This document shows positions 3,845 to 31,259 of a DNA stretch of 33,580 bases, piece by piece. The notes beneath the pieces were generated by a model that was given only the letters and a program-made list of their open reading frames with translations, did no database searches and was not told the origin of the DNA. Numbering within the stretch: position 1 is the stretch's first letter; each line of letters starts with the position of its first letter. The stretch spans positions 1 through 33,580 of IMG/VR virus record IMGVR_UViG_3300038711_000037; one strand, written 5' to 3'. The position numbers and the translations under genes were made by a program. The DNA comes from a virus.

Positions 3845-4569
3845 TGAGTAATAACTCCTAGTCCACAACTTCCTACAAATCCGTTGTGTTTATATTTGGG
3901 GTGGTTAAAGAATTTTTCAAAAGCGGGTCTTTCGTGAAATTGATATAACCATTCAGAACGCGAAATATAATTTATTTCTGGTGGCCCTGAGATAGTTGAA
4001 AGAGACCATTCATGATAAGCATAAGTGGCATTAGGAAAAGAGTCGTGAAGTAGTTCAGCTATTTTCGTACAAAAAGGTTGGCGATGATCTGCGTCAACAA
4101 AAATAAAGTCAGGGATTTTATCAATTTCTGCTAAAAATTCAAATGCATCGGCTTCGTAAAACTCAATTGTGTCTTTTTCCATAGCTTTCGTAAAGTGGGT
4201 ACTTATTCTATGTGGTAATTTGTTATCTACACATAAAATTTTATCATTATTAGAGTTTTTTATTACAGCTTCTGCCATTAGAGCTGCGCTCATTCCCTGG
4301 GCTGTACCAATTTCAAAGACAACATGCGGTTTAATTCTTCGAATTAATGTGTACAGAATCAATCCTTCAATATAATCTAAAGTTCCTGATCCTGCATATT
4401 CCCCTCCAAAATCTGCGTGACATCGGATAGATTCTTCTAAAAACCATTCATCCCAGATTAGATCATATTCTTTTTCTTCTAAAGTATAGTCTTTAAAAAA
4501 ATTAGCTAATTGTGTTCGAGAAAGATTATCTGTTTTGTATTTGGTTTTAGTTTCTTTTTGTAATATCAT
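3841..4569 (-). CDS. Class I SAM-dependent methyltransferase, first gene of the sugar operon
   Basis: A 242-residue protein with VFEIGTAQGMSAALMAEA (SAM loop), ILCVDNKLPH (acidic strand) and DFIFVDADHRQPF, a Methyltransf_24-like layout. The frame is open to 4605, but ATG 4569 is preferred: a good promoter (TTGCTA, 17-nt spacer, TATAAT) ends 8 nt before it, so the transcript would begin at or next to the start codon. No Shine-Dalgarno is possible, which suggests leaderless translation. It is the first gene of the run toward 59 and follows the tmRNA terminator. Confidence 0.75.
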   Translation of the reverse strand: MILQKETKTKYKTDNLSRTQLANFFKDYTLEEKEYDLIWDEWFLEESIRCHADFGGEYAGSGTLDYIEGLILYTLIRRIKPHVVFEIGTAQGMSAALMAEAVIKNSNNDKILCVDNKLPHRISTHFTKAMEKDTIEFYEADAFEFLAEIDKIPDFIFVDADHRQPFCTKIAELLHDSFPNATYAYHEWSLSTISGPPEINYISRSEWLYQFHERPAFEKFFNHPKYKHNGFVGSCGLGVITQ

Positions 4570-4576
4570 TATATAT

Positions 4577-4605
4577 ATTATACATAAATTTTTAAAAAAT
4601 AGCAA
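4577..4605 (-). promoter_or_regulatory. Sigma-70-type promoter for the sugar operon (leaderless)
   Basis: On the minus strand TTGCTA (4600-4605) and TATAAT (4577-4582) are separated by exactly 17 nt. Transcription would start near 4570, next to the ATG at 4569. Confidence 0.65.
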
Positions 4606-4637
4606 GTGGGGGTGTAAATACAGACAGGATTAAAAGT

Positions 4638-4661
4638 AAAAAAAAGGAGGTCCAAAGGACC
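4638..4661 (-). terminator. Intrinsic terminator of the tmRNA gene
   Basis: On the minus strand, GGTCC-TTT-GGACC (4649-4661) is followed by TCC and a run of eight T (4638-4645). It lies just 3' of the tmRNA coding piece and upstream of the next promoter. Confidence 0.8.
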
Positions 4662-4950
4662 CCATGTATAAGATATATTCTTAGTGTATGAGATGGAGGC
4701 TTCTGTTGCCAGGTGCCTCCGAACCCCGAGAAAATTAAGCTGCTAAAGCATATTCCTCAAATGCCTCATTATCGTTGGCATTTATAAGTTTCTTGCAGTT
4801 TAGGTTGCTTGCTCACCTGTCTCTCCAGTTGCTTTTACTACATCAGTCGATCCTAATTCACCCCCTATGAAACTTTTTGTAATACTGGTGGTGGAGGTGA
4901 CGGGTACTGCCCCCGTGTCCTGTCTGCTTATTTTGCTTCTATCATCGAGA
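4662..4950 (-). ncRNA. ssrA: Circularly permuted two-piece tmRNA
   Basis: On the minus strand the 3' (acceptor) half comes first: a T-arm with CGGG/CCCG stem around GGCAGTA, then CACCTCC-A-CCA with the CCA at 4889-4891. After a 23-nt intervening segment (4866-4888) comes the 5' half, starting GGGGGTG at 4865 and followed by a GGATCGACT D-arm-like segment. The halves pair as a 7-bp acceptor stem GGGGGUG/CACCUCC with a G-U at the third pair, the alanine identity element. The tag frame (4738-4779, stop 4735-4737) encodes ANDNEAFEEYALAA. A GGAGGC...GCCTCC hairpin and the terminator follow. This order is that of alphaproteobacterial permuted tmRNA, which rescues stalled ribosomes and tags the product for proteolysis. 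Ends of the precursor are approximate. Confidence 0.93.
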
Positions 4951-4954
4951 CTAT

Positions 4955-5236
4955 TTATTCTAGACATTCATTAGTAGTAAGATTTGTCCATTTACTACGA
5001 CACTTTCCTCTACCTATTTTCCAATTAGGATGTGGGGCGAGATTATAAAAGTCGCTAATACTCAAGTGTTTTATAACAAGTGTACGGTGTTTCCAATTAT
5101 TAAAGTCAAATTTTATAGGTTTTTCTTGGGGAGTGGTGAGAGTGGGGGATGTTGCTTCTTTAGAGAACGCTGTTTCTCCTACGAAACTACAAAGTAAGGT
5201 GATTAAGCATAGTTTTGTAAGAATGGGGTTATTCAT
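4955..5236 (-). CDS. Small exported protein, unknown
   Basis: A 93-residue protein with a signal peptide: charged start MNNPILTK, hydrophobic core LCLITLLCSFVGETAF and probable cleavage near FSKEA. The mature part is about 65 residues with two cysteines (GKCRSK and NECLE). No family recognised. It overlaps the stop of the coiled-coil gene by 4 nt (start 5236), and its stop lies next to the tmRNA 5' end, so the tmRNA might be cut from the same transcript. Confidence 0.65.
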   Translation of the reverse strand: MNNPILTKLCLITLLCSFVGETAFSKEATSPTLTTPQEKPIKFDFNNWKHRTLVIKHLSISDFYNLAPHPNWKIGRGKCRSKWTNLTTNECLE

Positions 5237-5538
5237 TGTTGCTCCTTCTGTTTTAGTTTTTGTATCTCTTTATGTAGTTCTTTATTTTTATATGTTAGAG
5301 ATACGATTTCATTTTGTAGATTTCTGTTTTCTTCTCTAATTTTATCAAGTTTCACAGAAAGGCTCATTAAATTTGGTTCTGAAATTGGTGTTCTCCATCT
5401 ACTTTCGTCATTAAAAATTTTTTTTTCATCATACATCTTATCAAATTTGGTATGAGTACAAACTTGAGGCCATTTACTTTTTTTAGCTGTGTTATTCCAA
5501 AAATGGTATAAGTCTTTTTTAAAATCAAAATTAATCAT
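5233..5538 (-). CDS. Coiled-coil protein, unknown
   Basis: A 101-residue protein. The N-terminal half is basic and aromatic (KDLYHFWNNTAKKSKWPQ), and residues about 60-98 form a strong coiled coil rich in Leu, Lys and Glu (LDKIREENRNLQNEIVSL and KNKELHKEIQKLKQKEQQ). It overlaps the exported-protein gene by 4 nt and starts 4 nt after the gp62-like fragment. No function can be assigned. Confidence 0.65.
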   Translation of the reverse strand: MINFDFKKDLYHFWNNTAKKSKWPQVCTHTKFDKMYDEKKIFNDESRWRTPISEPNLMSLSVKLDKIREENRNLQNEIVSLTYKNKELHKEIQKLKQKEQQ

Positions 5539-5541
5539 CTT

Positions 5542-5643
5542 TCAAAGCGGTTTTAGCATCGACTCCCATTGTTCATCCTTAGTATCCAAAAGAGGTTCTT
5601 TTGTGTAATTTATAGCATTTAGGTAATCTTTTAATTCATACAT
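5542..5643 (-). pseudogene. Short gene resembling the N-terminus of T4-type clamp-loader subunit gp62
   Basis: A 33-residue frame beginning MYELKDYLNAINYTKEP and then LLDTKDEQWE. From memory, cyanophage-type gp62 proteins start with a very similar MYELKDYL-INxxK-x-LMDxxD-xxWE segment and continue for another hundred residues. Here the frame stops at MLKPL. It starts at the very edge of the left copy of the 40-bp repeat, so it may be a remnant left by the rearrangement that created the GC-richer block. It could instead be a genuine small protein. The similarity is recalled, not computed. Confidence 0.45.
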
Positions 5644-5644
5644 G

Positions 5645-5684
5645 ATCAATAATATCTATTTTTGTTGTACTTTTTTTATTTCTC
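5645..5684. repeat. 40-bp perfect direct repeat, left copy
   Basis: Identical over 40 bp to 8547-8586, starting ATCAATAATATC and ending in a T-rich stretch ATTTCTC. The two copies bracket about 2.9 kb of visibly GC-richer DNA. On the minus strand each copy includes the end of a frame finishing in EK-stop and the AT-rich spacer after it. Confidence 0.9.
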
Positions 5685-5771
5685 CCTCCCATATAATTCT
5701 TTACAAGCGTTATCTAATCCAATTTGATCGCTAAAGTATTTTGTATGCTTATCGCGTAAGCCCAGAATCAA
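5676..5771 (-). CDS. Possible small protein (31 residues)
   Basis: A minus-strand frame ending HTKYFSDQIGL...CKELYGREK, with no ATG; TTG at 5771 or CTG at 5774 could start it, with GGAG upstream. The composition is AT-rich like the phage rather than the adjacent GC-richer gene. It may be the 3' remnant of a longer gene cut by the rearrangement. Weak evidence. Confidence 0.3.
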   Translation of the reverse strand: MILGLRDKHTKYFSDQIGLDNACKELYGREK

Positions 5772-5780
5772 CAGTATGTT

Positions 5781-6167
5781 TCAGTCTCCTAAATAGAATT
5801 GACTACAAAACGCTCTCAGAACTGCGGTGTCCGTCTCGAACGGGACACGCTCCCACTGTGTGAACCAATCTTGGTTCTGTAGCTCGACCCGATCCGGCAC
5901 ACCGTACTTGCCCAAGGTTCCCCAGATGCGGACCGCCGGACCACCTGTTCCCAGTAGGATTTCGAACTCTTCGGGACCGTCGTATGCTGGCGCTCCGACT
6001 TCTCGCCAGCCATCGCGAACCATGACCGACAGTGGCATCTCGCACATGCGGTCTCGTATGTTGTCCGCTAGACGGTCTCTCATGGTTTCTATAGCCCAGT
6101 TGTGAATTTTGACTAAGCGCTTGATCTCTGAGTAGTCGCCACTCCCGGCTGTCCTTTCGTTTGTCAT
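5781..6167 (-). CDS. Orphan protein in the GC-richer block
   Basis: A 128-residue protein starting MTNERTAGSGDYSEIKR at ATG 6167, preceded by a GAAAGG ribosome site. The frame is open upstream to 6263, but that extension (MTTFVKES...) is partly made of an 18-bp segment that recurs at 6352-6369 in another frame, so I do not favour it. The body has an N-terminal helix (HNWAIETMRDRLADNIRDR) and a C-terminal part rich in Trp and Glu. No family recognised. Codon use and GC content are far above the phage background, suggesting transfer. Confidence 0.6.
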   Translation of the reverse strand: MTNERTAGSGDYSEIKRLVKIHNWAIETMRDRLADNIRDRMCEMPLSVMVRDGWREVGAPAYDGPEEFEILLGTGGPAVRIWGTLGKYGVPDRVELQNQDWFTQWERVPFETDTAVLRAFCSQFYLGD

Positions 6168-7378: not shown

Positions 7379-8236
7379 TCAATCATATATGGCACACCCC
7401 TGTTCGGCAGCAAGTCTGAACCACTTCACCGCAGTCTTATCATCCTGTGGAACACCCCATCCTTGTTGGTACATCAAACCCAGATTGTACTGGGCCATGG
7501 CATACCACTGTTCGGCAGAAAGCCTGAACCACTTCACCGCATTCTTGTAGTCCCGTGGAACACCTTGTCCATTACGGTACATCAAACCCAGATTGTACTG
7601 GGCATCGGCATCCCCCTGTTCGGCAGAAAGTGTGTACCACTTCACCGCAGTCTTGTAGTCCTGTGGAACACCCCATCCTTGTTGGTACATCAAACCCAGA
7701 TTGTACTGGGCAAAGGCAACCCCCTGTTCGGCAGAAAGTGTGTACCACTTAACCGCTGTCTTACCGCAATCCTGTGTAACCCCCCATCCTTGTTGGTACA
7801 TGAAACCCAGTTTGTTCTGGGCCAAGGCATACCCCTGTTCGGCAGAAAGTGTGTACCACTTCACCGCAGTCTTGTAGTCCTGTGGAACACCTTGTCCATT
7901 ACGGTACATCAAACCCAGTTTGTTCTGGGCATATGCATCCCCCTGTTCGGCAGCAAGCCTGAACCACTTAACCGCTTTCTTGTAGTCCCGAGGAACCCCC
8001 CATCCTTGTTGGTACATGAAACCCAGTTTGTTCTGGGCATATGCATCCCCCTGTTCGACAGCAAGTTTGAACCACTTAACCGCTTTCTTGTAGTCCCGAG
8101 GAACCCCCCATCCTTGTTGGTACATCACACCCAGATTGTACTGGGCATTGGCATTCCCCTGTTCAGCAGCAAGTCTGAACGACTTCACCGCTGTCGTTTC
8201 GTCCATTGTCGTTTTATCCAGTGTTTTTAGTCGCAT
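7379..8236 (-). CDS. Sel1-repeat (SLR/TPR-like) protein
   Basis: A 285-residue protein made almost wholly of Sel1-like repeats of 36 residues: seven full units plus a truncated eighth ending GCAIYD. Each has the A-VKW-x-LxAEQG-A-AQ-x-LG-MYxxGxGV-xDxK pattern of paired helices. The units are nearly identical in DNA as well. Unit 4 has one extra residue (TQDCGK) and unit 7 has EQW for EQG. No signal peptide is visible, so it is probably cytoplasmic and a protein-binding scaffold. ATG 8236 is preceded by a GGGGGG purine run. Sel1 proteins are usual in bacteria and unusual in phages; the high GC supports acquisition. Confidence 0.88.
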   Translation of the reverse strand: MRLKTLDKTTMDETTAVKSFRLAAEQGNANAQYNLGVMYQQGWGVPRDYKKAVKWFKLAVEQGDAYAQNKLGFMYQQGWGVPRDYKKAVKWFRLAAEQGDAYAQNKLGLMYRNGQGVPQDYKTAVKWYTLSAEQGYALAQNKLGFMYQQGWGVTQDCGKTAVKWYTLSAEQGVAFAQYNLGLMYQQGWGVPQDYKTAVKWYTLSAEQGDADAQYNLGLMYRNGQGVPRDYKNAVKWFRLSAEQWYAMAQYNLGLMYQQGWGVPQDDKTAVKWFRLAAEQGCAIYD

Positions 8237-8378
8237 CACTATCCCCCCTTTGAAACCTCTTTGATATTTCAGAAAGTGTCATATTTCCTGGGAAAATTTT
8301 ATTGTGTTTCTTTAGTATTAATTTTTTTAGGTTAAAATCCTTGGCTTTACTCCTAAAAATAAATACGGTTTTTTTCAT
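8214..8378 (-). CDS. Small basic protein (54 residues), unknown
   Basis: ATG at 8378 overlaps the stop of the upstream small gene (ATGA). The product starts MKKTVFIFRSKAKDF and is very lysine-rich (NLKKLILKKHNK), ending DSDATKNTG. Its last 23 nt overlap the start of the Sel1 gene, so translation of the two may be coupled. The DNA changes here from AT-rich to GC-richer. No family recognised. Confidence 0.45.
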   Translation of the reverse strand: MKKTVFIFRSKAKDFNLKKLILKKHNKIFPGNMTLSEISKRFQRGDSDATKNTG

Positions 8379-17471: not shown

Positions 17472-17687
17472 ATGAGGACGAAGGTTACTTATAATAAAAA
17501 TTATATATCTAAAAGTTTAGAAGATTTTTTTCTTTTTTGCCCTTTAATTACTATTGAAAGGAAGATAATAAGAGATTGTTTGACTGCTCAACTTCAATAC
17601 GGTAAATTAACAAATCGTAGGTGGGAGAGGGTCGTGCAGATTTATCACAAGTATAAAGACTATGATCACGATAACAGAGTCGGCTAA
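17472..17687 (+). CDS. Small hypothetical protein
   Basis: A 71-residue basic protein starting MRTKVTYNKNYISKSLEDFF, with RKIIRDCLTAQLQYGKLTNR in the middle. It overlaps the A-type Fe-S gene by 26 nt. No family recognised. Confidence 0.5.
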   Translation: MRTKVTYNKNYISKSLEDFFLFCPLITIERKIIRDCLTAQLQYGKLTNRRWERVVQIYHKYKDYDHDNRVG

Positions 17688-17982
17688 GTCTCATTTATTA
17701 GATATTATGCATACTAATGATAAGAGAGTAAGATTAGCTGTTAAAGGCGGGGGATGTTCAGGATTTACTTATGATTGGCAGTTAGTAGACTTGCCATTAA
17801 GTGATGATGAAGAGTTTCCTTTGGATAAAAGCAATAATTTAATTGTAGATGCAATGAGTTTGCTTTATCTTGCTGGAATGAGAATTGATTATAAGAAAGA
17901 TATTTTTGGTAGCTTACTGAAATTAGATAATCCTAACATTAAGTCTTCGTGTGGTTGCGGGGAGTCGTTTAATGTACTCTAA
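17662..17982 (+). CDS. A-type iron-sulfur carrier (HesB/IscA family)
   Basis: A 106-residue protein with the whole family signature: start MITITESAKSHLLDIM, KGGGCSGFTYDW with the first ligand Cys, DIFGSLLKLDNPN, and the terminal SSCGCGESF giving the Cys-x-Cys pair. It carries 2Fe-2S or 4Fe-4S clusters to target enzymes. In this phage the four radical SAM proteins about 4 kb downstream are obvious candidate clients, which is inference. Similar genes occur in cyanophages and pelagiphages. Confidence 0.93.
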   Translation: MITITESAKSHLLDIMHTNDKRVRLAVKGGGCSGFTYDWQLVDLPLSDDEEFPLDKSNNLIVDAMSLLYLAGMRIDYKKDIFGSLLKLDNPNIKSSCGCGESFNVL

Positions 17983-21327: not shown

Positions 21328-21976
21328 ACTTGTTGGGGTAACGAGGCCAATAGATGAGTTTGGGGATAGTGCTAGTGATGTAGTAGCATATTGTGCCAGA
21401 GTTTCTAACCCTAATAATCAAAGTAATTTTGGAACAGGGTCTAAGTTATTAAGTTATATGATTAGGGAAGGGCATTGGAGCCCTTTTGAGATGGTTCATA
21501 TAACAATGGAAATTGAGACTACGCGGGATATTGCGCGACAAATTTTACGTCATCGTTCTTTTGCTTTTCAAGAATTTTCTCAGCGGTATGCAAAAGTTAA
21601 AACTTTTTCTTTAAGAGAAGCAAGGTTACAAGATCATAAGAATCGCCAAAATTCTGTGAAAACGAATGATGAAAACTTATTACAATGGTGGTATAAAGTA
21701 CAAACCACTATACAAGAAAAAAGTGATAAATATTACCAACAAGCTCTTTTTAAGGGGATTGCTAAAGAACAAGCAAGAGCTTTGTTACCGGAGGGGTTAG
21801 CTGTGAGTAAACTTTATATGGCTGGAAGTTTACGGTCTTGGATTCATTACTGTCAGCTTAGAACAGGGCACGGAACACAGCAAGAGCATATTGAAGTAGC
21901 AAAAGCATGTTGGAAAATCATAAAAACAGAATTTCCTGATGTGACGGCTGCGGTTGAACAATTATGCGAAGCTTGA
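21317..21976 (+). CDS. thyX: Flavin-dependent thymidylate synthase
   Basis: A 219-residue enzyme making dTMP from dUMP with FAD, NADPH and methylenetetrahydrofolate. The ThyX motif is RHRSFAFQEFSQRY (about residues 72-85), differing from the usual RHRxxSxxxxSxRY by Ala for the first Ser. Other landmarks are GHWSPFEMVHITMEIET, the LLPEGL segment and SWIHYCQLRTGHGTQQEH. Length is normal. The stop overlaps the first radical SAM gene's ATG (TGATG). ThyX is standard in marine phages. Confidence 0.95.
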   Translation: MTVKLVGVTRPIDEFGDSASDVVAYCARVSNPNNQSNFGTGSKLLSYMIREGHWSPFEMVHITMEIETTRDIARQILRHRSFAFQEFSQRYAKVKTFSLREARLQDHKNRQNSVKTNDENLLQWWYKVQTTIQEKSDKYYQQALFKGIAKEQARALLPEGLAVSKLYMAGSLRSWIHYCQLRTGHGTQQEHIEVAKACWKIIKTEFPDVTAAVEQLCEA

Positions 21977-23004
21977 TGGTATATTTGAAAACAACGGAAA
22001 CATGTCAATTAGATTGTGCTCATTGTTTTACTTCTGGGAGTCGTGGGAGAAAAATATATTTTAATGCAGAAAAAACGATAGATTGGTTTAAAAGGATTAA
22101 AAATGATATTTCAACGATTAAAGATATCCATGTGGAGTTTCATGGAGGAGAACCGTTTTTGGCACCCCTTAGTGACATGTGGTCTGTGTGGAGAGGCACT
22201 CATCATTTGTGGGATAGCTCTAGCTATGGGGTTTGTACAAATTTGGTTTTTAATTTAGATGATGATAAATTAGAATTTATTGAGACAGCTTTAAGGGGAC
22301 AAATTGGGACGAGTTGGGACCCTACCATTAGGTTTGCTAATTCTCAACAATATGATTTATGGTTAAAAAATATTAATACTTTAACTCAGAACTCTGATAA
22401 TTATGTTTCTTTATTTGTTTCGTTAAGTAAGGATGTTATTGCTAAAAGACCTATTGAAATTTTACGATTTGTTAAGTCTTTAAATGTGGATGCTTTGCAT
22501 TTAGAGCGTATTACTGTGAATGGGAGTGCAAGAAAAAACAACCATATTTTACCTTCTAATAAAGATTTAGATAGATGGTTTGTTCAACTGTACGAAGATA
22601 CGGTACATCATAATGCTTTTGGCTGGTTTGATAATGTATTTTTAAATTCGATTTTAAGAAAATTTACTCATGGCACTAAAGAAGCTACTTTTTGTCGTAA
22701 CTGTGAACAAAAAATATTTACTATCAACGCTGACGGTACTATTGGAGGGTGTCCAAATTCAGCGCCTGAAGATTTTTATGGACATATCGATGATAATATA
22801 GTAAAATTATTATATAATCCCAGTAGACAACATATAATTGCGTGTGAGCTTTCTCGTGATCCTAGGTGTTATGAGTGCCCTGTTTTTGCTTATTGTGGTG
22901 GAGATTGTCATCAATTGGCTTGGGAGGACGACCAATGTGGTTCAGCTAGGAGTTTAATGGTAAAGTTAAAAGAAAGGAACGCTACTGAAAAGTTAGTAGC
23001 ATAA
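21976..23004 (+). CDS. Radical SAM/SPASM enzyme 1
   Basis: A 342-residue enzyme. The 4Fe-4S motif CQLDCAHC (Cys 10, 14 and 17) is near the start, and HVEFHGGEPFL holds the GGE strand for SAM. The C-terminal SPASM-like domain has CRNCEQK, GGCPNSAPEDF and CYECPVFAYCGGDCHQL, enough Cys for two more clusters, as in sulfatase and peptide maturases. I start at ATG 21976, overlapping the thyX stop, though the frame is open to 21964. It would generate a 5'-deoxyadenosyl radical to modify a protein or peptide; the CHxS protein 324 nt downstream is the natural candidate. Confidence 0.93.
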   Translation: MVYLKTTETCQLDCAHCFTSGSRGRKIYFNAEKTIDWFKRIKNDISTIKDIHVEFHGGEPFLAPLSDMWSVWRGTHHLWDSSSYGVCTNLVFNLDDDKLEFIETALRGQIGTSWDPTIRFANSQQYDLWLKNINTLTQNSDNYVSLFVSLSKDVIAKRPIEILRFVKSLNVDALHLERITVNGSARKNNHILPSNKDLDRWFVQLYEDTVHHNAFGWFDNVFLNSILRKFTHGTKEATFCRNCEQKIFTINADGTIGGCPNSAPEDFYGHIDDNIVKLLYNPSRQHIIACELSRDPRCYECPVFAYCGGDCHQLAWEDDQCGSARSLMVKLKERNATEKLVA

Positions 23005-23013
23005 AAAGTTATA

Positions 23014-23316
23014 ATGAAATATAAAATTATACTACCAATTTTAATGGTTTTTACGATTTCAACGCCAACTTTTAGTTTTAGTCCAGAAAGTTGTAGTTCT
23101 AGAATCGACTCTATTACTGGAAAATTCACCTGGCCGTATGGCTTTGATTCAAGAACAATTATAAAACAATGTGCTTTTCAAACCTTTAGATTTGGTAGAG
23201 AAGAAAAGATTTTTTTAAATTGTGTAGAAGATAGGTTTAATAAAGTAATACACGATAGTGTATACGCAGAAAAATTCGCTAAAAAAGCTTTGCGTAGAAT
23301 TAAACGTAACTGTTAA
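23014..23316 (+). CDS. Small exported protein next to the CHxS protein
   Basis: A 100-residue protein with a signal peptide (MKYKIILPILMVFTISTPTF, cut near SFSPES). The mature 80 residues are basic with four Cys (ESCSSR, KQCAFQ, LNCVED and a terminal Cys), likely forming two disulfides. It sits between radical SAM 1 and the CHxS protein. Function unknown; it may be a periplasmic partner of the modified product or unrelated cargo. Confidence 0.6.
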   Translation: MKYKIILPILMVFTISTPTFSFSPESCSSRIDSITGKFTWPYGFDSRTIIKQCAFQTFRFGREEKIFLNCVEDRFNKVIHDSVYAEKFAKKALRRIKRNC

Positions 23317-23328
23317 TAGGAGATAATT

Positions 23329-23919
23329 ATGAGTGATACTCCTTCAAGTGGTGAAGCTGTAACCAAACAGCGAATGGTAAATAGTTTTCTTGATAATGTA
23401 AGAGACAATATTGAGAGTGCTATTGTATGGGATAGTGGTAACAGGCCGAGTAATTCTACTGGGCAAACGCTGCAAAATGCCATTCCTGCGGCACTTACTA
23501 CAGGAGCGATTGGGTTAGGAAGTGGTACTTTAGGAACTCCTGGAACTGATAAAATTACGGATTCTAAAATTACAGCAGCACAATTAGCTACAGTTTTAGT
23601 TAATTACGTTTCTATTTTTACAAAAATTCGCAAGGTTAATTTACAGCAGTATCGAGATAACGACACTATTGATTCAAACGAAACAAACGTTACTCATTTA
23701 AGTTCTAATACTTACGAACAGTCCAATACTTTGTCAAGTTTAGCAGCAGCTGATGACGTTGAGACTGATGAAGAAATTGATGCGTCTAATTTTAATGACT
23801 TTACGACAGCACTTTATAATCAGTGGAATTCTTTAAAAGATAACGCTGTAACAGTTCAAGAGTTTTATTGTCATTCTAGTTGTCATACTAGTTGTCACGG
23901 TTCGAGAGGAAGGAGATAG
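23329..23919 (+). CDS. Putative modified protein with C-terminal CHxS repeats (RiPP-like precursor)
   Basis: A 196-residue protein. Residues 1-175 are rich in Ser, Thr, Asn, Asp and Ala, with no signal peptide and no Cys. Residues 181-192 are three perfect Cys-His-Xaa-Ser tetrads (CHSS, CHTS, CHGS), followed by RGRR at the end. All three Cys and three of the four His lie in this tail. The tetrads recall the His-Xaa-Ser systems, whose substrate is modified by two radical SAM enzymes. Four radical SAM and four HxD...H oxygenase genes surround it. It has the best ribosome site in the cluster (AGGAGAT). The long N-terminal part could be a virion or fibre domain rather than a leader. Function is inference. 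Confidence 0.7.
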   Translation: MSDTPSSGEAVTKQRMVNSFLDNVRDNIESAIVWDSGNRPSNSTGQTLQNAIPAALTTGAIGLGSGTLGTPGTDKITDSKITAAQLATVLVNYVSIFTKIRKVNLQQYRDNDTIDSNETNVTHLSSNTYEQSNTLSSLAAADDVETDEEIDASNFNDFTTALYNQWNSLKDNAVTVQEFYCHSSCHTSCHGSRGRR

Positions 23920-24644
23920 TGTTAAATATAGATACTCCTGATCTTGGTAATATTATAAATTGTGTAGTCCCTATAGAAATTGAAAATTTAAGAAAGTATT
24001 TTGAAAATAAAGACTTATCATTTCATATTGATTACTCTTGTAGTAAATTGCAGGATAAAAAACTTTTAGTTTACTTGTCTAACTTAGATGTTCCTGCGGA
24101 TTTAACTTTTTCTAAAGCTTTAGATTTTGAAAAAAGGTCATCGCTTCTTTATGAGTATATGACTTTACCAGCAGTAGTTAATCTTCCAGTATTTAATTTA
24201 GCTGCTTCTTCTATAGTATTTCGTTATAAAGGATATGATATAGAGAATGCTTATCCTAATCCTTATTTTTCTCTTTCGGAAGCAGATCTTTATATTAGGC
24301 AAAATACGAGTACTGTTTCGCGTTGGGTAACTTTTTTAGATTCTTGTACTATTTATGCACAAAAATGTTTACCCGAATTAAATGATGAAAAATTTTTAAC
24401 TGACGGGATAGAAATAGTTACTAACAGGGAGTATGTGGGTTATAGTATAGTTAATTTATTTTCTTTAGATTTCTTTTTTCATAATTACTATCAAAAACCT
24501 TTAGGAACCCTTTATTACTTTAAGCCGCAATTTGAAGAGTATATGTTTCATGGAAAAAATTTATTTTATTATTATGCTACTAAGCATAATTTTCTTCTTT
24601 CTATGCTTAAGGCCTTAGGAAAGGATTACACTGATGCACATTAA
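23919..24644 (+). CDS. Unknown protein of the CHxS cluster
   Basis: A 241-residue protein starting at GTG 23919 (MLNIDTPDLGNIINCVV), which overlaps the stop of the CHxS gene by one base and has AAGGAG just upstream; the open frame to 23892 is inside the repeat tail and disfavoured. Aromatic-rich (YQKPLGTLYYFKPQFEEYMF, NLFYYYATKHNF), no Cys cluster, no known motif. Its position directly after the substrate candidate suggests a recognition or chaperone role, such as binding the substrate for the enzymes. That is a guess from position. Confidence 0.6.
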   Translation: MLNIDTPDLGNIINCVVPIEIENLRKYFENKDLSFHIDYSCSKLQDKKLLVYLSNLDVPADLTFSKALDFEKRSSLLYEYMTLPAVVNLPVFNLAASSIVFRYKGYDIENAYPNPYFSLSEADLYIRQNTSTVSRWVTFLDSCTIYAQKCLPELNDEKFLTDGIEIVTNREYVGYSIVNLFSLDFFFHNYYQKPLGTLYYFKPQFEEYMFHGKNLFYYYATKHNFLLSMLKALGKDYTDAH

Positions 24645-25260
24645 AAATATGTCATTTTTTGCTTTTGAAACTCACATTATTTGGCGTGAGTATGATTTGG
24701 AAGATAGTTGGTATACTAATTTAGCTAACCAAATGCAGGCTAAGTTAGAGCTATTAAAGGCAGAAAAAGGAATTGATTATGTGGAGGCAGGAGATGCTGA
24801 TGCTAATGTTTTTGAGGAAGGTACTCCAGAGCAATTAGAACTTAAGGCTATGTTTACTGACGCTTTTGGTGAGTTGGGACGTCGACATGGACATAATTTA
24901 AGCTTCTCTTTGTCTGTTGACTCTTTGTCACGCATTACTCCTATGAAAAAGTTTGATTATAAACCCGCCCATTCTCATTCGGATGTAGATGCGTTTGCTG
25001 TTTTTTATTTGGATGTAGTACAAGGACAGGGAGGAGATTTGCTTCTGCATGATCCTAAGTTTATTAATCAAATTACTTTTTGTAGTCCAAAAACGAAAAC
25101 TATTGTTCCAGTTCGTGGAACCCTTGTGGCAGCTCCTGCTTATATATGGCACGAAGTTTCTCGTTATTTGGGAGAACATACTCGATGGGCAATTGTATGT
25201 AATTGTATAGTTGACTGGGAATCTAAAAAGGATATTGTTTCAACGGACCGCGCTCCCTAA
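24634..25260 (+). CDS. 2OG-Fe(II) oxygenase-like protein 1 (prolyl-hydroxylase type)
   Basis: A 208-residue protein. KPAHSHSDVDAFAVFYLD gives the HxD metal pair (HSD), GQGGDLLLHDP a typical strand, and PAYIWHEVSRYLGEHTRWAI the distal His and the Arg that binds 2-oxoglutarate. This is the layout of phage 2OG-Fe(II) oxygenases of the P4H-like group, which hydroxylate protein side chains. Many T4-like marine phages carry such enzymes; here it is overlapped on both sides (11 nt and one base) by cluster genes, suggesting it acts on the same substrate. Confidence 0.82.
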   Translation: MHIKNMSFFAFETHIIWREYDLEDSWYTNLANQMQAKLELLKAEKGIDYVEAGDADANVFEEGTPEQLELKAMFTDAFGELGRRHGHNLSFSLSVDSLSRITPMKKFDYKPAHSHSDVDAFAVFYLDVVQGQGGDLLLHDPKFINQITFCSPKTKTIVPVRGTLVAAPAYIWHEVSRYLGEHTRWAIVCNCIVDWESKKDIVSTDRAP

Positions 25261-26273
25261 TGGAGATATTAGATTACGCTGAAAAAAGAACTATAAACGG
25301 GGAAATTATTGTTACCCTATTTGAACAATGTAACTTAGCGTGTCGCTTTTGTCCTCAAGATCACTCTTCTAGGGAAGGTCTTTACAATATAAAAGAAAAA
25401 AAAGATTACATTATTAAAGCAATTCTTAATTTAAAAAAAGCTGGTCGTACTCAATTTTCTGTTCATTTGATGGGAGGTGAGGTATTTTCAGATTTAATAG
25501 AAAAAAGCACATTTAAAGATTACTATGATCTTGTAAGTTCTTTATTTGAGTGGGCTCACAGGTTTGAAATATCTTTAGAAGTCGCATTTACTACTAATTT
25601 AGTTTTTTCGGATTATAAACGAGTGGACGAGCTGATGGCTCGTTTATTTTTATTAGATTCTCGTGTGTATTTAATGACTTCTTATGATCCACACTCACGG
25701 TTTAATAACGAAACTTTTAGTGTTTTTAAGAAAAACGTAAGAGAACTTAATCACTGGATTCGAACAGTTAATGTTATAATGACAAAACCAGCTATTAATA
25801 AATTTTTGTCTTATGAGACACCTTTTTTTGGTTATTTATATACTCATTTTGATATTTATTTTGATTATTACACACCTGAAAATCATTCAACACAATTTAT
25901 GCCTAAGGATGTAGATTTAAAAAAATTAATGTTGTTCTTAGTGGATAATTATCCTGACTGTCTACCTATCAAAGATTACTTTTCTCGTAAAAAAATAAGA
26001 ATGAGTTGTCAAGATACTTACACCATTTTACCGAATAATAGGTCGGGAATGTGTACGATTTTACTAGGTGGTTATTATGAGGGATATAAAAGAAATAAGA
26101 ATGATATGGAACGTAGGTTTATGGAAGATTATAATTGTTTAGAGTGTCATCATTTTAGCCGATGTTCTTTAGGGTGTTATTTGAGCCATGACTTGTCTGA
26201 TACTCGAACCCAGGAAGAGTGTTGGTTAAAAGACGTGTACGATTACGTGGACAGTCATGGAACTCATTATTAA
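25260..26273 (+). CDS. Radical SAM enzyme 2
   Basis: A 337-residue enzyme with CNLACRFC (Cys 24, 28 and 31) and a GGE-type strand in HLMGGEVFS. The C-terminal region carries more Cys: RMSCQDTY, GMCTILLGG, YNCLECHHFSRCSLGCYL and EECW, a SPASM or twitch-like set for auxiliary clusters. Overlaps the oxygenase stop (TAATG) and the next radical SAM gene by 17 nt. Divergent from enzyme 1 in length and spacing, so it probably performs a different step. Confidence 0.9.
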   Translation: MEILDYAEKRTINGEIIVTLFEQCNLACRFCPQDHSSREGLYNIKEKKDYIIKAILNLKKAGRTQFSVHLMGGEVFSDLIEKSTFKDYYDLVSSLFEWAHRFEISLEVAFTTNLVFSDYKRVDELMARLFLLDSRVYLMTSYDPHSRFNNETFSVFKKNVRELNHWIRTVNVIMTKPAINKFLSYETPFFGYLYTHFDIYFDYYTPENHSTQFMPKDVDLKKLMLFLVDNYPDCLPIKDYFSRKKIRMSCQDTYTILPNNRSGMCTILLGGYYEGYKRNKNDMERRFMEDYNCLECHHFSRCSLGCYLSHDLSDTRTQEECWLKDVYDYVDSHGTHY

Positions 26274-27312
26274 GCCAACGGAGTTATGTAATTTTAAATG
26301 CACTTTTTGTTCTTCTACCCGTATCGCTGCTCATAAATCCGACTTATTATCTCATGATTATATCTTTCGTTTTTTAAAACGTTTTCCGCAGACTAAAACA
26401 ATTATTGTTAATGGAGGAGACCCTTTAATGGTTGATCCTTCTTATTACTGGAAAATTATTGAGTATTTAGATAATTATAATTTATCTACTTCTATTGCTT
26501 TAACTACAAATCTGTGGCCGTTTTATAAAAACCCTAAGAAGTGGGTATCATTGTTTGATAATGAACGAGTAGGAGTTACTACTTCTTTTAATTATGGAGA
26601 TGGCAGGCTTAAAGGAGATTATAGTTTATTTACTGAAAGTGATTTTTGGTATTGCTCCGATGCTATGTTGGAATATGTTGGATACCGTCCGGACTTTATA
26701 TCTGTTATTACTAAGGGTAATGAGCAGTTCGCTGTTAAAAATGTAGAGTTGGCACGAAAAATGAGTAATTTTGAGGAGCCACAGGGAACTTTACATAATT
26801 ATAATAGATCAGAAAAAGTTGGAGTTGAGTGTAAATTAAACTACGCTATGGCTTCTGGAGATCAAAAAGATCCTTATTTGTTATCTAAAATTTATGAAAT
26901 TTATTTAGAAGTTTACAACGAAGGACTGGCTCCTTGGGAATTTAACACTAAACAGATGATGACAAGGCTCAGTATTGGAAACACTTCTTGTCCTCAGTGC
27001 CGCAACTGCGACGAGGGAATTAGAGCTTTTAATCCAAGCGGAGATTACTATTCTTGCGGTGCTTTTGGAGATGATCAGGATGAGTCTATAAGTTTTAAAA
27101 AAGAAATGGAAGGGCAGTTTTTTACTCCGCTTCAGGATAATCCAGATTTGGTAAGTCTAAAAAATGAGTGTTTTACTTGTCCTATGTTTAGTATTTGTAA
27201 TGGTTGTAGGAAAACTGTTAAAGACTTAAAAGAGGCTGATGTTGTAGAGCAACACTGTGTTAAGATGAAGAGAATAGCTTCCGATATTATGAGGATAAAT
27301 AAACTGAATTAA
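26257..27312 (+). CDS. Radical SAM/SPASM enzyme 3
   Basis: A 351-residue enzyme. CNFKCTFC (Cys 11, 15 and 18) binds the radical SAM cluster, and IIVNGGDPLM is the GGE-equivalent strand with Asp in place of Glu. The end has CPQCRNCDEG, DYYSCGAFGDD and ECFTCPMFSICNGCRKT ... QHCVKMK, a SPASM pattern. Overlaps its neighbours by 17 nt and one base. Likely works with enzymes 1, 2 and 4 on a shared peptide substrate (inference). Confidence 0.9.
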   Translation: MELIIKPTELCNFKCTFCSSTRIAAHKSDLLSHDYIFRFLKRFPQTKTIIVNGGDPLMVDPSYYWKIIEYLDNYNLSTSIALTTNLWPFYKNPKKWVSLFDNERVGVTTSFNYGDGRLKGDYSLFTESDFWYCSDAMLEYVGYRPDFISVITKGNEQFAVKNVELARKMSNFEEPQGTLHNYNRSEKVGVECKLNYAMASGDQKDPYLLSKIYEIYLEVYNEGLAPWEFNTKQMMTRLSIGNTSCPQCRNCDEGIRAFNPSGDYYSCGAFGDDQDESISFKKEMEGQFFTPLQDNPDLVSLKNECFTCPMFSICNGCRKTVKDLKEADVVEQHCVKMKRIASDIMRINKLN

Positions 27313-27857
27313 TGCTAGAAGATTTTGAAATGTGGAAAGCAGTTAGGCATAGACGTTATCATACTCCTCTTTTGTCTAAAGGTTTTTTACGCTTTAATGA
27401 TAAGGAATCTTTTAAGTATTTAGAGAATTTTAACATTACCTGGGTCGATACCGATGGTTTTAAAGTTTGTGCTAAAAATGAGAGGTTATTAAACTCTCTT
27501 GTAAAAACTCATCGGTACGTAGGTAAAAAATATATTAAGAAACATTTTGGTAAATACTATTTAGGCGATAATGATGGATTTGTTAATGGCGTAGATCCTG
27601 GAACTGATGTGTGGCACAGTGATACTAAAGAAGGTTCTAATATAGCAGTTCTTTTATACTTTAGTAACATGAGTAAAAAAACTGGTGGAGCGTTACAAAT
27701 AAGAAATGCATTTACTAAAGAAGAGATGGGGTGTATTTACCCTGCTAAATATGATGTAGTTATTTTAGATCATACTTCTATGTGGGAGCATAAAGTAGAG
27801 TATTTAAAATTGGATGTTGATAGAATTGTTACAAGTTTTGGTTTTGTGCACGATTAA
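27312..27857 (+). CDS. 2OG-Fe(II) oxygenase-like protein 2
   Basis: A 181-residue protein. VWHSDTKEGSNIAVLLYFSN has the HSD (HxD) metal motif and following strands, then KKTGGALQIRN; WEHKVEYLKLDVDRIVTSFG carries the distal His and the Arg for 2-oxoglutarate. All required residues are present. It starts with ATG overlapping the radical SAM stop. Substrate unknown; cluster membership points to the CHxS protein. Confidence 0.78.
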   Translation: MLEDFEMWKAVRHRRYHTPLLSKGFLRFNDKESFKYLENFNITWVDTDGFKVCAKNERLLNSLVKTHRYVGKKYIKKHFGKYYLGDNDGFVNGVDPGTDVWHSDTKEGSNIAVLLYFSNMSKKTGGALQIRNAFTKEEMGCIYPAKYDVVILDHTSMWEHKVEYLKLDVDRIVTSFGFVHD

Positions 27858-27872
27858 GGATTGCGTATTGTA

Positions 27873-28571
27873 ATGTTTTCACTAGATGATTATTTTCATA
27901 AAGGTTTTACTACTTTAGATATTGAACCAACTATGTATAACCAATTTTTGTCAATGATGGAGGAAGAAGATTATACTCTTGAAGTTGCAAACGATAAAGT
28001 AGAGAATATTTTTTCTCCGTGTTGGGATGGCCCTATAGCGCATCGTACTTCTGATTATTATTTAAACTGTACAAGGTATAATGATTTACTATCTTCTCTT
28101 ATTCAGTCTAGAAAAGAGTTTACTTTTTGGAAAACTTTATACGGAAGTTTTGATAATTATAATATTATGATAAATAAAGTTCTGGGAAAAAATTCTATAC
28201 CTTGGCATTGGGATGGTTTTGATTCTTCTTTTATGCAAATTTTAGTTTATGGAGGAGAACTGCCTAATGGCATTTTTAGAGTGGCCAAGGTAGATAAGTG
28301 TACTACTTCTTCTAACACTCAAATTCCTCATTATTATCCCGAAGAGTATTTTGACAGGATTTCAAAAGAAGCTGTTTTTGAGGAGGTATATGAAATAGAG
28401 CCTAAACCTAATGAGGTTATTATCTTAAATAACATGAATCCTCTTTTTGTACATCACGGACTTGATTATTTTCAAAAAGATACTTCCCGTTACGTTTTAA
28501 TGTGTGGTTGCGGTTTTTCTTATAATTTTATTAATAATGCTCTTATTCATGGCGCGGAGGTATTTGATTAA
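27873..28571 (+). CDS. 2OG-Fe(II) oxygenase-like protein 3
   Basis: A 232-residue protein starting at ATG 27873 with AAGGA upstream; the frame is also open to TTG 27861. IPWHWDGFDSSFMQILVYGG provides HWD as the HxD pair, and NPLFVHHGLDYFQKDTSRYV the distal His and an Arg in the expected place. The region between is about 100 residues, longer than in protein 2. Similar core to P4H-like or phytanoyl-type enzymes but not close to a named family. Confidence 0.7.
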   Translation: MFSLDDYFHKGFTTLDIEPTMYNQFLSMMEEEDYTLEVANDKVENIFSPCWDGPIAHRTSDYYLNCTRYNDLLSSLIQSRKEFTFWKTLYGSFDNYNIMINKVLGKNSIPWHWDGFDSSFMQILVYGGELPNGIFRVAKVDKCTTSSNTQIPHYYPEEYFDRISKEAVFEEVYEIEPKPNEVIILNNMNPLFVHHGLDYFQKDTSRYVLMCGCGFSYNFINNALIHGAEVFD

Positions 28572-28574
28572 ATA

Positions 28575-29189
28575 ATGTTTCCAAAACTTTTTTTACTTAA
28601 ATACCTATTATTAAAAAAACATGATTATTTAGATTTTATTCAGTTTGGGAATAAGCAAAAACCCGCTTGCTTATTAGATGCACGATTTGCTCTTAATCCT
28701 CTTTTTGTCTACTTTTGTAAAAAACTTCACGTTCCACTCTTTTATCTTAAAGATAAATCGGATACAGCCATCTTTGTGAGTTATAGTATTTCTTTTGATA
28801 TTTTTAGAGAGGCTTGGAAAAACGATGATCACGAGAAAATAGGTTTAATATTAGGATACCCCAGTTGTTGTGTAGAAAACTACTCAAAAAATAACCTTGC
28901 TACTGCCCATTCTAAAACTTCATATTACGAATTATATAAAAAACAGATATTGCGTTCCCAACTTGTTAAAAAGTATTATACTAATATTACCATGTACCCT
29001 TTAGACCCTCACCGTATGTGTAGCCATATACCTTGTTCGTGGTCTTGTGTTAGAACTTTAGATAATAACAGAGAAAGAAAAAAGATATGGGATTATCAAC
29101 CTAAACGCTTAAAATTATGGGTAGATGCGACTTATAATTTTGTTACCCGTAAACCATCAGTTCCTTTGTCTGAGATTATTTTTCAGTAA
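28575..29189 (+). CDS. Cys-motif protein of the CHxS cluster (possibly DUF483-like)
   Basis: A 204-residue protein. GLILGYPSCCVENYSKNN near residue 95 and CSHIPCSWSCVRTLDNN near residue 155 form two Cys-rich motifs that could bind a metal or Fe-S cluster or carry an intermediate. The GYPxCC-x-x-x-Y/F pattern reminds me of DUF483 proteins, but I cannot confirm that. The N-terminal half is aromatic and hydrophobic (FPKLFLLKYLLLKK) without a clear membrane span. It lies between oxygenase 3 and radical SAM 4, the latter overlapping by one base. Confidence 0.55.
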   Translation: MFPKLFLLKYLLLKKHDYLDFIQFGNKQKPACLLDARFALNPLFVYFCKKLHVPLFYLKDKSDTAIFVSYSISFDIFREAWKNDDHEKIGLILGYPSCCVENYSKNNLATAHSKTSYYELYKKQILRSQLVKKYYTNITMYPLDPHRMCSHIPCSWSCVRTLDNNRERKKIWDYQPKRLKLWVDATYNFVTRKPSVPLSEIIFQ

Positions 29190-30115
29190 TGTTTACTGTT
29201 AGTGTGAATCCTACTTATTATTGTAATTTTAGATGTAAGTTTTGTTATCTTACATCACCTCAGTTATCAGACAGGCTAACTACTCCTTTAACTGTTATTG
29301 ATAGTAGATTAGCGTCAGTATCTGAACAGGTAGAAATTACGCATATAGATTTATACGGTGGAGAAATAGCTTTATTACCTTCTAGATACTTAAATACTTT
29401 GCTACCTATGTTAGAGCAGTATTCCTCTTCTATTAATATTATTACAAATTTTTCTGCAATGGTTCCTGTTTTATTTAGGAAAGGGGTTGATTTAACAGTT
29501 AGTTATGATTTTGATTGCAGAGAAAAACGTAGATTAGTTTTTAATAATATGATGTTTTCTTCTAAACCTTTAGCTGTATTAATTTTAGCTTCTCGTTGTA
29601 TACTTAAAAAAAACGTAGAAGAAATGATCAGTGAATTAAACTTATGTTCAGCTATTAAAAGTGTAGAAATTAAACCCTATTCTACTAGTCAAGCTAATTC
29701 TCAAGATATTTTATACACAGAATACGAAAAGTTTGTTATTAAGTGGATTACAAGTGGGGTTCCCAAAAATTTTGAATTTATTAATGAAAAGTTAATTAAA
29801 GGTAGTATTACCAAAAGCGGTTCTTATTATAAGAGCGCCTTTAGTGATAGTCATGTTTATTTAACTCCTACTGGCAAGTTCGCTACTTTAGAGTTTGATA
29901 AACAGGATAACGAGTACTTTTTAGAGTTTGATTGTTTTGAAGAATATTTAGAGTGGACTGATGTGGAAAAAGAAAGAGTGAGTAATAATTTGTATTGTTC
30001 TAAATGTGATTATTTAGGTTCGTGTTTATCTGAGCATTTGAGAGATGTTAAAGACTTAACATATTCGTGTAATGGATTTAAGCATTTGTTAGATTGGTAT
30101 AATGAAAGATTTTAA
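29189..30115 (+). CDS. Radical SAM enzyme 4
   Basis: A 308-residue enzyme with CNFRCKFC (Cys 12, 16 and 19) and HIDLYGGEIALLP as the SAM-binding GGE strand. The C-terminal part has a smaller set of Cys (LYCSKCDYLGSCLSEH, YSCNGF), so perhaps a single auxiliary cluster (twitch-like). It is the shortest of the four. ATG overlaps the previous stop (TAATG) and its end overlaps the next gene by 14 nt. Confidence 0.9.
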   Translation: MFTVSVNPTYYCNFRCKFCYLTSPQLSDRLTTPLTVIDSRLASVSEQVEITHIDLYGGEIALLPSRYLNTLLPMLEQYSSSINIITNFSAMVPVLFRKGVDLTVSYDFDCREKRRLVFNNMMFSSKPLAVLILASRCILKKNVEEMISELNLCSAIKSVEIKPYSTSQANSQDILYTEYEKFVIKWITSGVPKNFEFINEKLIKGSITKSGSYYKSAFSDSHVYLTPTGKFATLEFDKQDNEYFLEFDCFEEYLEWTDVEKERVSNNLYCSKCDYLGSCLSEHLRDVKDLTYSCNGFKHLLDWYNERF

Positions 30116-30659
30116 AAATAGTTTTTTAGCTTTAATGTCTATTGCTTCTAATGTTAATAGAGTTGGTAAAGCTACCTATATTCCTGACAGGTCTTTAGAT
30201 ATTTATTATGAGGATGTGATATTAGATCCTAATTATTTTAGTACTGAGTCTATATTTTTTATTGATTCTTCACAAAATAGTTCGTTAGTTAATCATCATT
30301 GTCACTCAGTGGCAGAGTTGTATGGTTTTTTAAAAGAAAAATCATTAGTTAAAATTAATAATATAGAAAGTTATAATAATAACTATATTAAATTTTGTGA
30401 AAATTTACAGCGAGCTTTTGGTGCTTCAAAAGTAGATTGTCATATATATTTTGGAAAGAAAAATTCTTTTTCTTTTAATTTTCATCAAGATCCTATGGGT
30501 GTTTTGATATACTGTTTACGAGGAAAAAAGGATATTAAACTTAAAAAACGCCGGATTTCTTTAGGCACAAATGATTGGGTTTATCTTCCAAAAAATACTA
30601 ATCATAAAGCATATTATCCTACGGATTCTATCACACTGAGTTTTGGAATCTATAAATAA
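30102..30659 (+). CDS. Cupin/JmjC-like Fe(II) oxygenase candidate
   Basis: A 185-residue protein. NFHQDPMGVLIYCLRGKKDI gives HQD (HxD) and the glycine turn typical of cupin and JmjC strands; KKRRISLGTNDWVYLPKNTN-H follows with the second His of the metal triad in a P-x-x-x-x-H setting, as in ribosomal-oxygenase-type proteins. It would hydroxylate a protein side chain with Fe(II) and 2-oxoglutarate. Last gene of the overlapping run; the next gene has its own promoter. The fold call is fairly safe, the activity is not shown. Confidence 0.72.
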   Translation: MKDFKNSFLALMSIASNVNRVGKATYIPDRSLDIYYEDVILDPNYFSTESIFFIDSSQNSSLVNHHCHSVAELYGFLKEKSLVKINNIESYNNNYIKFCENLQRAFGASKVDCHIYFGKKNSFSFNFHQDPMGVLIYCLRGKKDIKLKKRRISLGTNDWVYLPKNTNHKAYYPTDSITLSFGIYK

Positions 30660-30662
30660 TTA

Positions 30663-30692
30663 TTGCAGAGTCGTTCTTTTTTGTGTTATTAT
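30663..30692 (+). promoter_or_regulatory. Sigma-70-like promoter of the SprT-like gene (leaderless)
   Basis: TTGCAG (30663-30668), 18-nt spacer, TATTAT (30687-30692), with ATG 30699 seven nt later. The same -10-to-ATG spacing occurs at 4569, 11065 and 15892. Confidence 0.5.
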
Positions 30693-30698
30693 ATAAGA

Positions 30699-31259
30699 AT
30701 GAATAATACAGCATATTTAAATTATAAAGATTATTGGAATTGTTATGCCAAACATCAACTAACTCAATTAGAGGAGTGGTTACAAGAATCTTCTGCTTAT
30801 TCTAGTATGAGAAAATTCCAACTTACACACATTCGTTTAGATTGGAGTACTCACCGTCGTTTTTCACGAGGTGGGTGGTATAACCGACATGGAGGCGCAG
30901 GCGTTTCTATGGCTATGTGGCGTGTTTGTGGGCGTAAAGCCCCTAATGCGAAAGTTCCTCAAAAAGTGTATGAATACGCATCTTATCAGGATGATTCTGA
31001 AATTGGAAATTTTTATACGGATAATACCCATGATCGCTTAATGATGCAGTTGTGTCATGAGGTAGCGCATGCTGCTCAGTATACTCATAAAAGAGTTCAT
31101 AATATGATTGGAATTAAACCACATGGTGACGTATTTAAAATGTTTTATCGGGAAATTAGAAATCAGTGGTTAAATACCTATTTACCCGATCAAAACGAGA
31201 TGGGTCGGTTATATCGGGATCATAGAAAGATGAGCGTATTACAGGAGTTTGCAATATAA
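30699..31259 (+). CDS. SprT-like zinc metalloprotease domain protein
   Basis: A 186-residue protein starting MNNTAYLNYKDYWNCYAKH at ATG 30699. The frame extends to 30663, but that part is the promoter. LCHEVAHAAQYTHKR is an HExxH zinc-protease motif, and the third ligand is probably the His of GIKPHGDVFKMFYRE. The overall H-E-x-A-H ... H-G-x-x-F layout is that of SprT-like proteins. It could trim a protein, for example a leader from the CHxS product, but an independent role in DNA-protein crosslink repair is equally possible. Confidence 0.75.
   Translation: MNNTAYLNYKDYWNCYAKHQLTQLEEWLQESSAYSSMRKFQLTHIRLDWSTHRRFSRGGWYNRHGGAGVSMAMWRVCGRKAPNAKVPQKVYEYASYQDDSEIGNFYTDNTHDRLMMQLCHEVAHAAQYTHKRVHNMIGIKPHGDVFKMFYREIRNQWLNTYLPDQNEMGRLYRDHRKMSVLQEFAI

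Follow-up and report, generated by a model that had tools for sequence, protein, structure and literature searches.

Among described systems, the His-Xaa-Ser (Hxs) system, in which a repeat protein with His-Xaa-Ser in each repeat is encoded beside two SPASM-type radical S-adenosylmethionine (SAM) enzymes, is one of the closest to the locus analysed here. The locus lies in the 33,580-base virus record IMGVR_UViG_3300038711_000037, the whole of which is referred to as the window, and is built around a protein, S, that ends in three tandem Cys-His-Xaa-Ser (CHxS) tetrads and RGRR. This tail, as well as the run of enzyme genes around it (the CHxS cassette), had been pointed out in an earlier sequence-only reading of the same DNA. 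The tetrads share the His-Xaa-Ser core of the Hxs repeat and the presence of SPASM-type enzymes nearby, but the unit is Cys-His-Xaa-Ser/Asn/Ala, it stands at the extreme C-terminus together with RGRR, and where the Hxs system has two radical SAM families, it is accompanied by at least four, as well as by JmjC and 2-oxoglutarate (2OG) enzymes. The radical SAM enzyme next to S (rSAM A) matches the HxsB model TIGR03978 with 38.3 bits against a cut-off of 370 (E=6.6e-10), and other families match it better; the HxsC model gives 26.9 bits against a cut-off of 267.9 for a cassette radical SAM enzyme. No HxsD match was found among the ten cassette proteins scanned. S has no significant NCBIfam match and, with its CH-x-S/N/A unit, lacks the repeat that defines HxsA. 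The absence of HxsD and the difference in repeat unit are both as the sequence-only reading had described them.

A second comparison is with the triceptide or cyclophane class (FxsB, GrrM, XyeB, DynA) of ribosomally synthesised and post-translationally modified peptides (RiPPs). The models for DynA and related maturases give weak scores to rSAM A and to a further cassette enzyme, rSAM E, below the maturase cut-offs (DynA, 42 against 450 bits; XyeB, 19.9 against 450; FxsB, 25.2 against 370). Here the putative substrate is a protein of 130-300 residues in a fibre locus, and several unrelated radical SAM families are found per cassette. The locus is RiPP-like in that a short conserved motif occurs in a putative substrate encoded beside SPASM-type radical SAM enzymes.

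Giant phages whose structural-gene cluster includes numerous radical SAM genes have been reported before: eight such genes in Aeromonas phage 332-Vera (PMC12390700), twelve in the marine TARA T4-like EVG, which has an Fe-S carrier of the same type as that in the window (PMC5332604), and others in FLC6 (PMC8066314) and SURPRISE13 (PMC11898562). The accessible parts of these papers list the genes and propose no substrate, tail motif or function. We found no published description of the CHxS cassette in the open-licence literature, and within that scope the earlier statement that no such system has been described holds.

Results

The CHxS tail and the cassette enzymes co-occur strictly. As loci selected by the tail are unfit for testing tail conservation, we used sets seeded with rSAM E and with partner protein C, whose gene follows that of S, and we discounted the tail invariance in alignment A1, whose members had been picked by that very pattern. 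Of the viral loci that bear the tail and extend for 3 kb or more on each side, 29/29 contain a radical SAM gene of the cassette; the sequence-only reading had asked for a search of this kind. In the opposite direction, a CHxS tail lies upstream in 77 of the 78 new loci fetched by C alone, and the exception starts at a contig end. Seeding with rSAM E gave 52 loci that reach 9 kb or more upstream, and the tail is present in 49 of them; the other three belong to a rearranged second form, in which the CHxS genes would be expected to lie past the end of the fetched sequence. The regular occurrence of CHxS-tailed proteins without these enzymes, which the sequence-only reading had named as a refutation of its proposal, was thus not observed in these loci.

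When C, rSAM A and rSAM E were used as tblastn queries against 50,697 phage records, the cassette was found in Agrobacterium phage Atu_ph07, Sinorhizobium phage Phosso, three Burkholderia phages and Pseudomonas phage DT01, all of which are jumbo phages. It is also present in FLC6 and SURPRISE13. In the four loci that were read through, the gene directly 5' of C or one further 5' ends in CH.SCH.SCH.[SA]R[GS]RR. Plain tblastn with S detected no relative in phages although DT01 carries the tail, probably owing to low-complexity masking of the short tail; DNA patterns and partner proteins were used instead. Scanning IMG/VR for the tail pattern returned at least 120 viral stretches, and among the matches listed 117 of 120 were in frame and at the exact C-terminus, which excludes chance. 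The match of phrog_35144 to S is limited to its last 44 residues, and against viral models S matches only tail-bearing or unnamed phage proteins.

The typical gene order is a baseplate-like gene, a tail fibre gene, the JmjC/cupin gene G, rSAM A, S, C, c6, rSAM D, c17 or c18, the 2OG genes, rSAM E and rSAM F. c17, a B12-binding radical SAM protein, occurs in a subset of cassettes (for example at 4475-6022 of locus L057). In the second form, two CHxS proteins of ~127 residues are encoded in tandem, together with another radical SAM family (rX) and a homologue of C (hhalign, 98.9%). The bodies of the two types of putative substrate are barely alike (57% probability), yet they bear the same tail, an argument for the tail being the element that matters for function.

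Over its last 16 residues, S is almost invariant. The Cys, His and Arg residues of the tail are fixed, and the S bodies are ~26% alike per column in a set selected by the tail. We counted what the tail tolerates in 72 distinct proteins, from sets unselected for His or for the fourth position. His is present in 216/216 tetrads, and the fourth position is Ser in 195, Asn in 15, Ala in six and Gly in none. The X position is Gly in 50/216 tetrads. Likewise, direct scans of IMG/VR for matching tails with Gly as the fourth residue of the first or second tetrad gave no hit. The repeat number ranges from 3 to 5, and one of the longer versions has Asn in every unit. Ser, Asn and Ala share a β-carbon that Gly lacks, as would be needed for β-carbon cross-linking of a His-Xaa-Ser/Asn triad.

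In phages, the cassette adjoins fibre genes. The gene preceding G-A-S encodes a tail fibre, with a phrog_19602 match in 26/30 cases and a Peptidase_G2 intramolecular chaperone domain in 11/30; a tail fibre gene is found upstream in most loci with enough flanking sequence. The Atu_ph07 cassette follows the baseplate wedge and large structural genes. S is gp170 of this phage (we checked the numbering of its coding sequences (CDS) against the capsid and baseplate genes), and in the published virion mass spectrometry, CDS 170-215 form one of the clusters in which virion proteins are concentrated (PMC6102473).

The tail is not restricted to phages. When 84,980 species were scanned, each represented by a single genome, 19 hits were obtained. 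We dismissed those out of frame (in Streptomyces, Pseudoclavibacter and others) as chance matches, and all in-frame hits are in metagenome-assembled or binned genomes. Phage contamination was considered and rejected for at least three of these, whose CHxS cassettes lie on true Bdellovibrionota chromosomes by gene content: their neighbours, read from translations, are MutL, MiaA, S20, SecA or cytochrome oxidase. The earlier description of the operon as phage-encoded is therefore correct for the window but not exclusive, since predatory bacteria carry the cassette on their chromosomes.

The Bdellovibrionota cassettes adjoin genes whose products combine a pilin-type N-methylation signal with the tail-spike chaperone domain Peptidase_S74. 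In five of six predator genomes, each of the six with only 1-4 S74 genes, one such gene is close to the CHxS gene or to the cassette, ~3-15 kb from S. Chromosomal cassettes beside N-methyl/Peptidase_S74 genes are found at loci L223-L226 (PAMZ01000003.1), L227-L228 (JAUHVL010000003.1) and L229-L230 (DDVI01000089.1), which also encode a protein of ~200 residues ending in GRHWVKVK or similar. Bdellovibrio uses S74 fibres in prey recognition; its mosaic adhesive trimers are, like the products expected of the cassette neighbours, predator surface fibres with S74 chaperone domains (PMC10769870). The cassette neighbours differ in starting with a pilin-type N-methylation signal, and the text of PMC10769870 contains no mention of pilin. 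The presence of fibre genes next to the cassette in two unrelated settings, phages and predators, is the strongest pointer to its function.

The features of the window are listed in Table 1. The cassette genes abut or overlap almost throughout, so the near-continuous run described by the sequence-only reading stands except at one point, where a 100-residue open reading frame (ORF) with a signal-peptide-like start separates rSAM A from S. All four radical SAM enzymes claimed earlier are present, each with CxxxCxxC near the N-terminus and a match to the radical SAM family phrog_1802 (E from 1e-34 to 5e-63); only rSAM E among them passes the own cut-off of Pfam PF04055. The start of rSAM A had been placed at 21976, which is corrected in Table 1. 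rSAM A orthologues are encoded directly 5' of the CHxS gene or one gene off (37-51% identity in jumbo phages), and those of rSAM E are 48-62% identical over their full length. The HxD...H signature does occur in four proteins, as claimed: the JmjC_2 match of G is above its cut-off, two 2OG matches are just below theirs, and the assignment of the fourth protein (27861-28571) as an oxygenase is tentative. The protein with two Cys motifs matches DUF483.

The 241-residue protein of the sequence-only reading is partner C. Its ORF reads 250 residues from a TTG, and its true start is likely near 23919, which gives 241. In most loci, C is encoded directly 3' of the CHxS gene. Its AlphaFold2 model is confident (predicted local distance difference test score, 90), but a fold search against the PDB returned no match at E<=0.001, and C, considered here for leader recognition (through a RiPP recognition element or similar), matches no Pfam or NCBIfam family. 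Compared with the typical order, the window has G at the end, mostly found upstream of rSAM A elsewhere, lacks c6, and has a DUF483-like gene in addition. No counterpart of this gene or of the 100-residue ORF was seen in other cassettes. The A-type carrier is a possible supplier of Fe-S clusters to the radical SAM enzymes.

Elsewhere, the window has phage features (spanin, phage exonuclease, ThyX and Hsp20), a Sel1-like repeat protein recognised by sequence reading only, and a permuted transfer-messenger RNA (tmRNA) gene, whose alphaproteobacterial type hints at an alphaproteobacterial host.

Table 1. Positions of the CHxS cassette and other features in the window.
Feature	Position	Strand	Evidence or remark
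tmRNA gene, permuted, alphaproteobacterial type	4644-5001	-	
Sel1-like repeat protein	7379-8239	-	
A-type Fe-S carrier	17662-17982	+	PF01521 E=3.1e-19
rSAM A, radical SAM/SPASM	21964-23004	+	phrog_1802 E=4.6e-63; SPASM model TIGR04085 34 bits, cut-off 27
100-residue ORF	23014-23316	+	sequence; no family in gene clustering
S, CHxS protein, proposed substrate	23329-23919	+	196 residues; C-terminus CHSSCHTSCHGSRGRR, then stop
Core tail, three CHxS tetrads, then RGRR	23869-23916	+	column frequencies, 72 distinct proteins
Partner C (phrog_20767)	23892-24644	+	phrog_20767 E=2e-54
2OG-Fe(II) oxygenase-like, family o9	24634-25260	+	PF13759 E=1e-5, just below cut-off
rSAM D	25260-26273	+	phrog_1802 E=2.4e-37; position same in jumbo phages
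rSAM E	26257-27312	+	PF04055 above cut-off; most conserved cassette enzyme
2OG-Fe(II) oxygenase-like, family o12	27312-27857	+	PF13640 E=1.5e-5, just below cut-off
HxD...H protein	27861-28571	+	no Pfam match; BLAST cluster with o12 family
DUF483-like protein with Cys pairs	28575-29189	+	PF04467 27.6 bits, cut-off 25; no cluster family
rSAM F	29189-30115	+	phrog_1802 E=1.4e-34; position same in relatives
JmjC/cupin protein G	30102-30659	+	PF08007 (JmjC_2) 27 bits, cut-off 22
SprT-like metalloprotease gene	30663-31259		directly 3' of cassette; match just under cut-off

Discussion

We propose, with a probability of roughly 60%, that the cassette is a dedicated maturation pathway for a fibre-associated surface protein, the tail of which is cross-linked or remodelled in a RiPP-like manner. 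The co-occurrence in three directions supports the suggestion of the sequence-only reading, in which the tail serves as substrate for a multi-step maturation carried by the phage, and we consider it very probable that the cassette enzymes act on the tail. An association of S with the fibre or the virion is probable, too, given the neighbouring genes.

The maturation might proceed as follows. As synthesised, S would have a body that varies and a C-terminal tail that does not, (Cys-His-Xaa-Ser/Asn/Ala)n and then Arg-Gly/Ser-Arg-Arg. C, together with c6 where present, probably holds or presents S, and the four or more SPASM/twitch-type radical SAM enzymes would act on the repeats; rSAM A probably acts first, because it is adjacent to S. 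Their chemistry would most likely be abstraction of a hydrogen from the β-carbon of Ser, Asn or Ala, and joining of this carbon to the His ring or the Cys of the same tetrad. Hydroxylation or oxidation of the product by G and the 2OG-Fe(II) enzymes may follow, and the B12-dependent c17, where a cassette includes it, may methylate it. The A-type carrier would help to feed the many Fe-S enzymes. The result would be a rigid, metal-capable tail on or beside a trimeric fibre, the tail fibre in phages and a pilin-anchored spike in predatory bacteria, that meets the surface of the host or prey. The β-carbon part of this proposal, which rests mainly on the fourth position never being Gly, is tentative and somewhat doubtful. 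A three-residue aromatic-X-Ser/Asn motif of the triceptide kind would suit such a cross-link.

Several observations weigh against the proposed pathway. The enzyme sets vary, with c6, c17, c18, rX and the 2OG proteins coming and going. The exclusion of Gly could come from folding or metal binding, so that our confidence in the type of bond is low. S has no recognisable fold (nothing significant in a PDB fold search), and confidence in its model is only moderate. Within the window, none of the genes could be recognised as coding for a virion structural protein. Finally, all three clusters drawn for Atu_ph07 contain exactly 46 CDS (PMC6102473); gp170 may be the mere edge of a drawn window, making its inclusion suggestive only. 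We therefore rejected gp170 as a proven virion protein.

The best-surviving alternative is a metal-binding tip, in which the Cys and His residues of three chains would coordinate Fe or Zn where a trimeric needle ends; the enzymes would then serve to make or insert a metal cofactor instead of cross-linking the peptide. His motifs coordinate metal at the tips of known phage spikes, and radical SAM enzymes also make metal cofactors; the restriction of fixed positions to Cys, His, Ser/Asn/Ala and Arg, the closeness of fibre genes and the Fe-S carrier in the window would all be in keeping with such a tip. However, the known metal-capped spikes, to our knowledge, need no modifying enzymes, and a metal tip leaves the JmjC and 2OG enzymes and the fixed fourth position unexplained. 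We regard it as unlikely.

It is still less probable that S is a carrier whose modified tail is cleaved away to be released, as a small cofactor or an antibacterial peptide, in the manner of pyrroloquinoline quinone or other RiPPs. The repeat number varies as in RiPP cores, large unrelated bodies bear the same tail, and a metalloprotease gene follows the window cassette. However, the gene clusters of the cassette loci include neither an exporter nor a conserved protease family, the placement beside fibre genes is constant, and the tail is fixed up to its very last residue.

Membership in the Hxs system, to which the His-Xaa-Ser in every tetrad, the weak HxsB match of rSAM A and an HxsB annotated in a Leptospira phage might point, was rejected as highly improbable on scores far under the family cut-offs, the lack of HxsD, the larger number of radical SAM families and the Cys in every unit. 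The annotated HxsB (vB_LnoZ_CZ214-LE1, KF114877.1, 80210-81220) indicates that the Hxs system may also be phage-borne.

Returning to the maturation pathway, we put forward with reservations a broader possibility: that four or more radical SAM enzymes with JmjC/2OG and in some cases B12 enzymes represent a new class of post-translational modification, which might form, at the tips of attachment fibres, a spike of repeated and cross-linked Cys-His-Xaa-Ser/Asn units, used by giant phages on their tails and by predatory bacteria on pilin-anchored fibres to breach or grip a bacterial envelope.

The radical SAM gene clusters of giant phages, so far odd and unexplained, are tied by our findings to one putative substrate motif and to attachment fibres. 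The virions of cultured phages make the question of the tail testable by mass spectrometry. Should the tail prove to be modified, it would show that phages apply complex radical chemistry to a surface protein, which would be a source of new peptide cross-links, and a tool shared by phages and predatory bacteria against Gram-negative envelopes would come into view.

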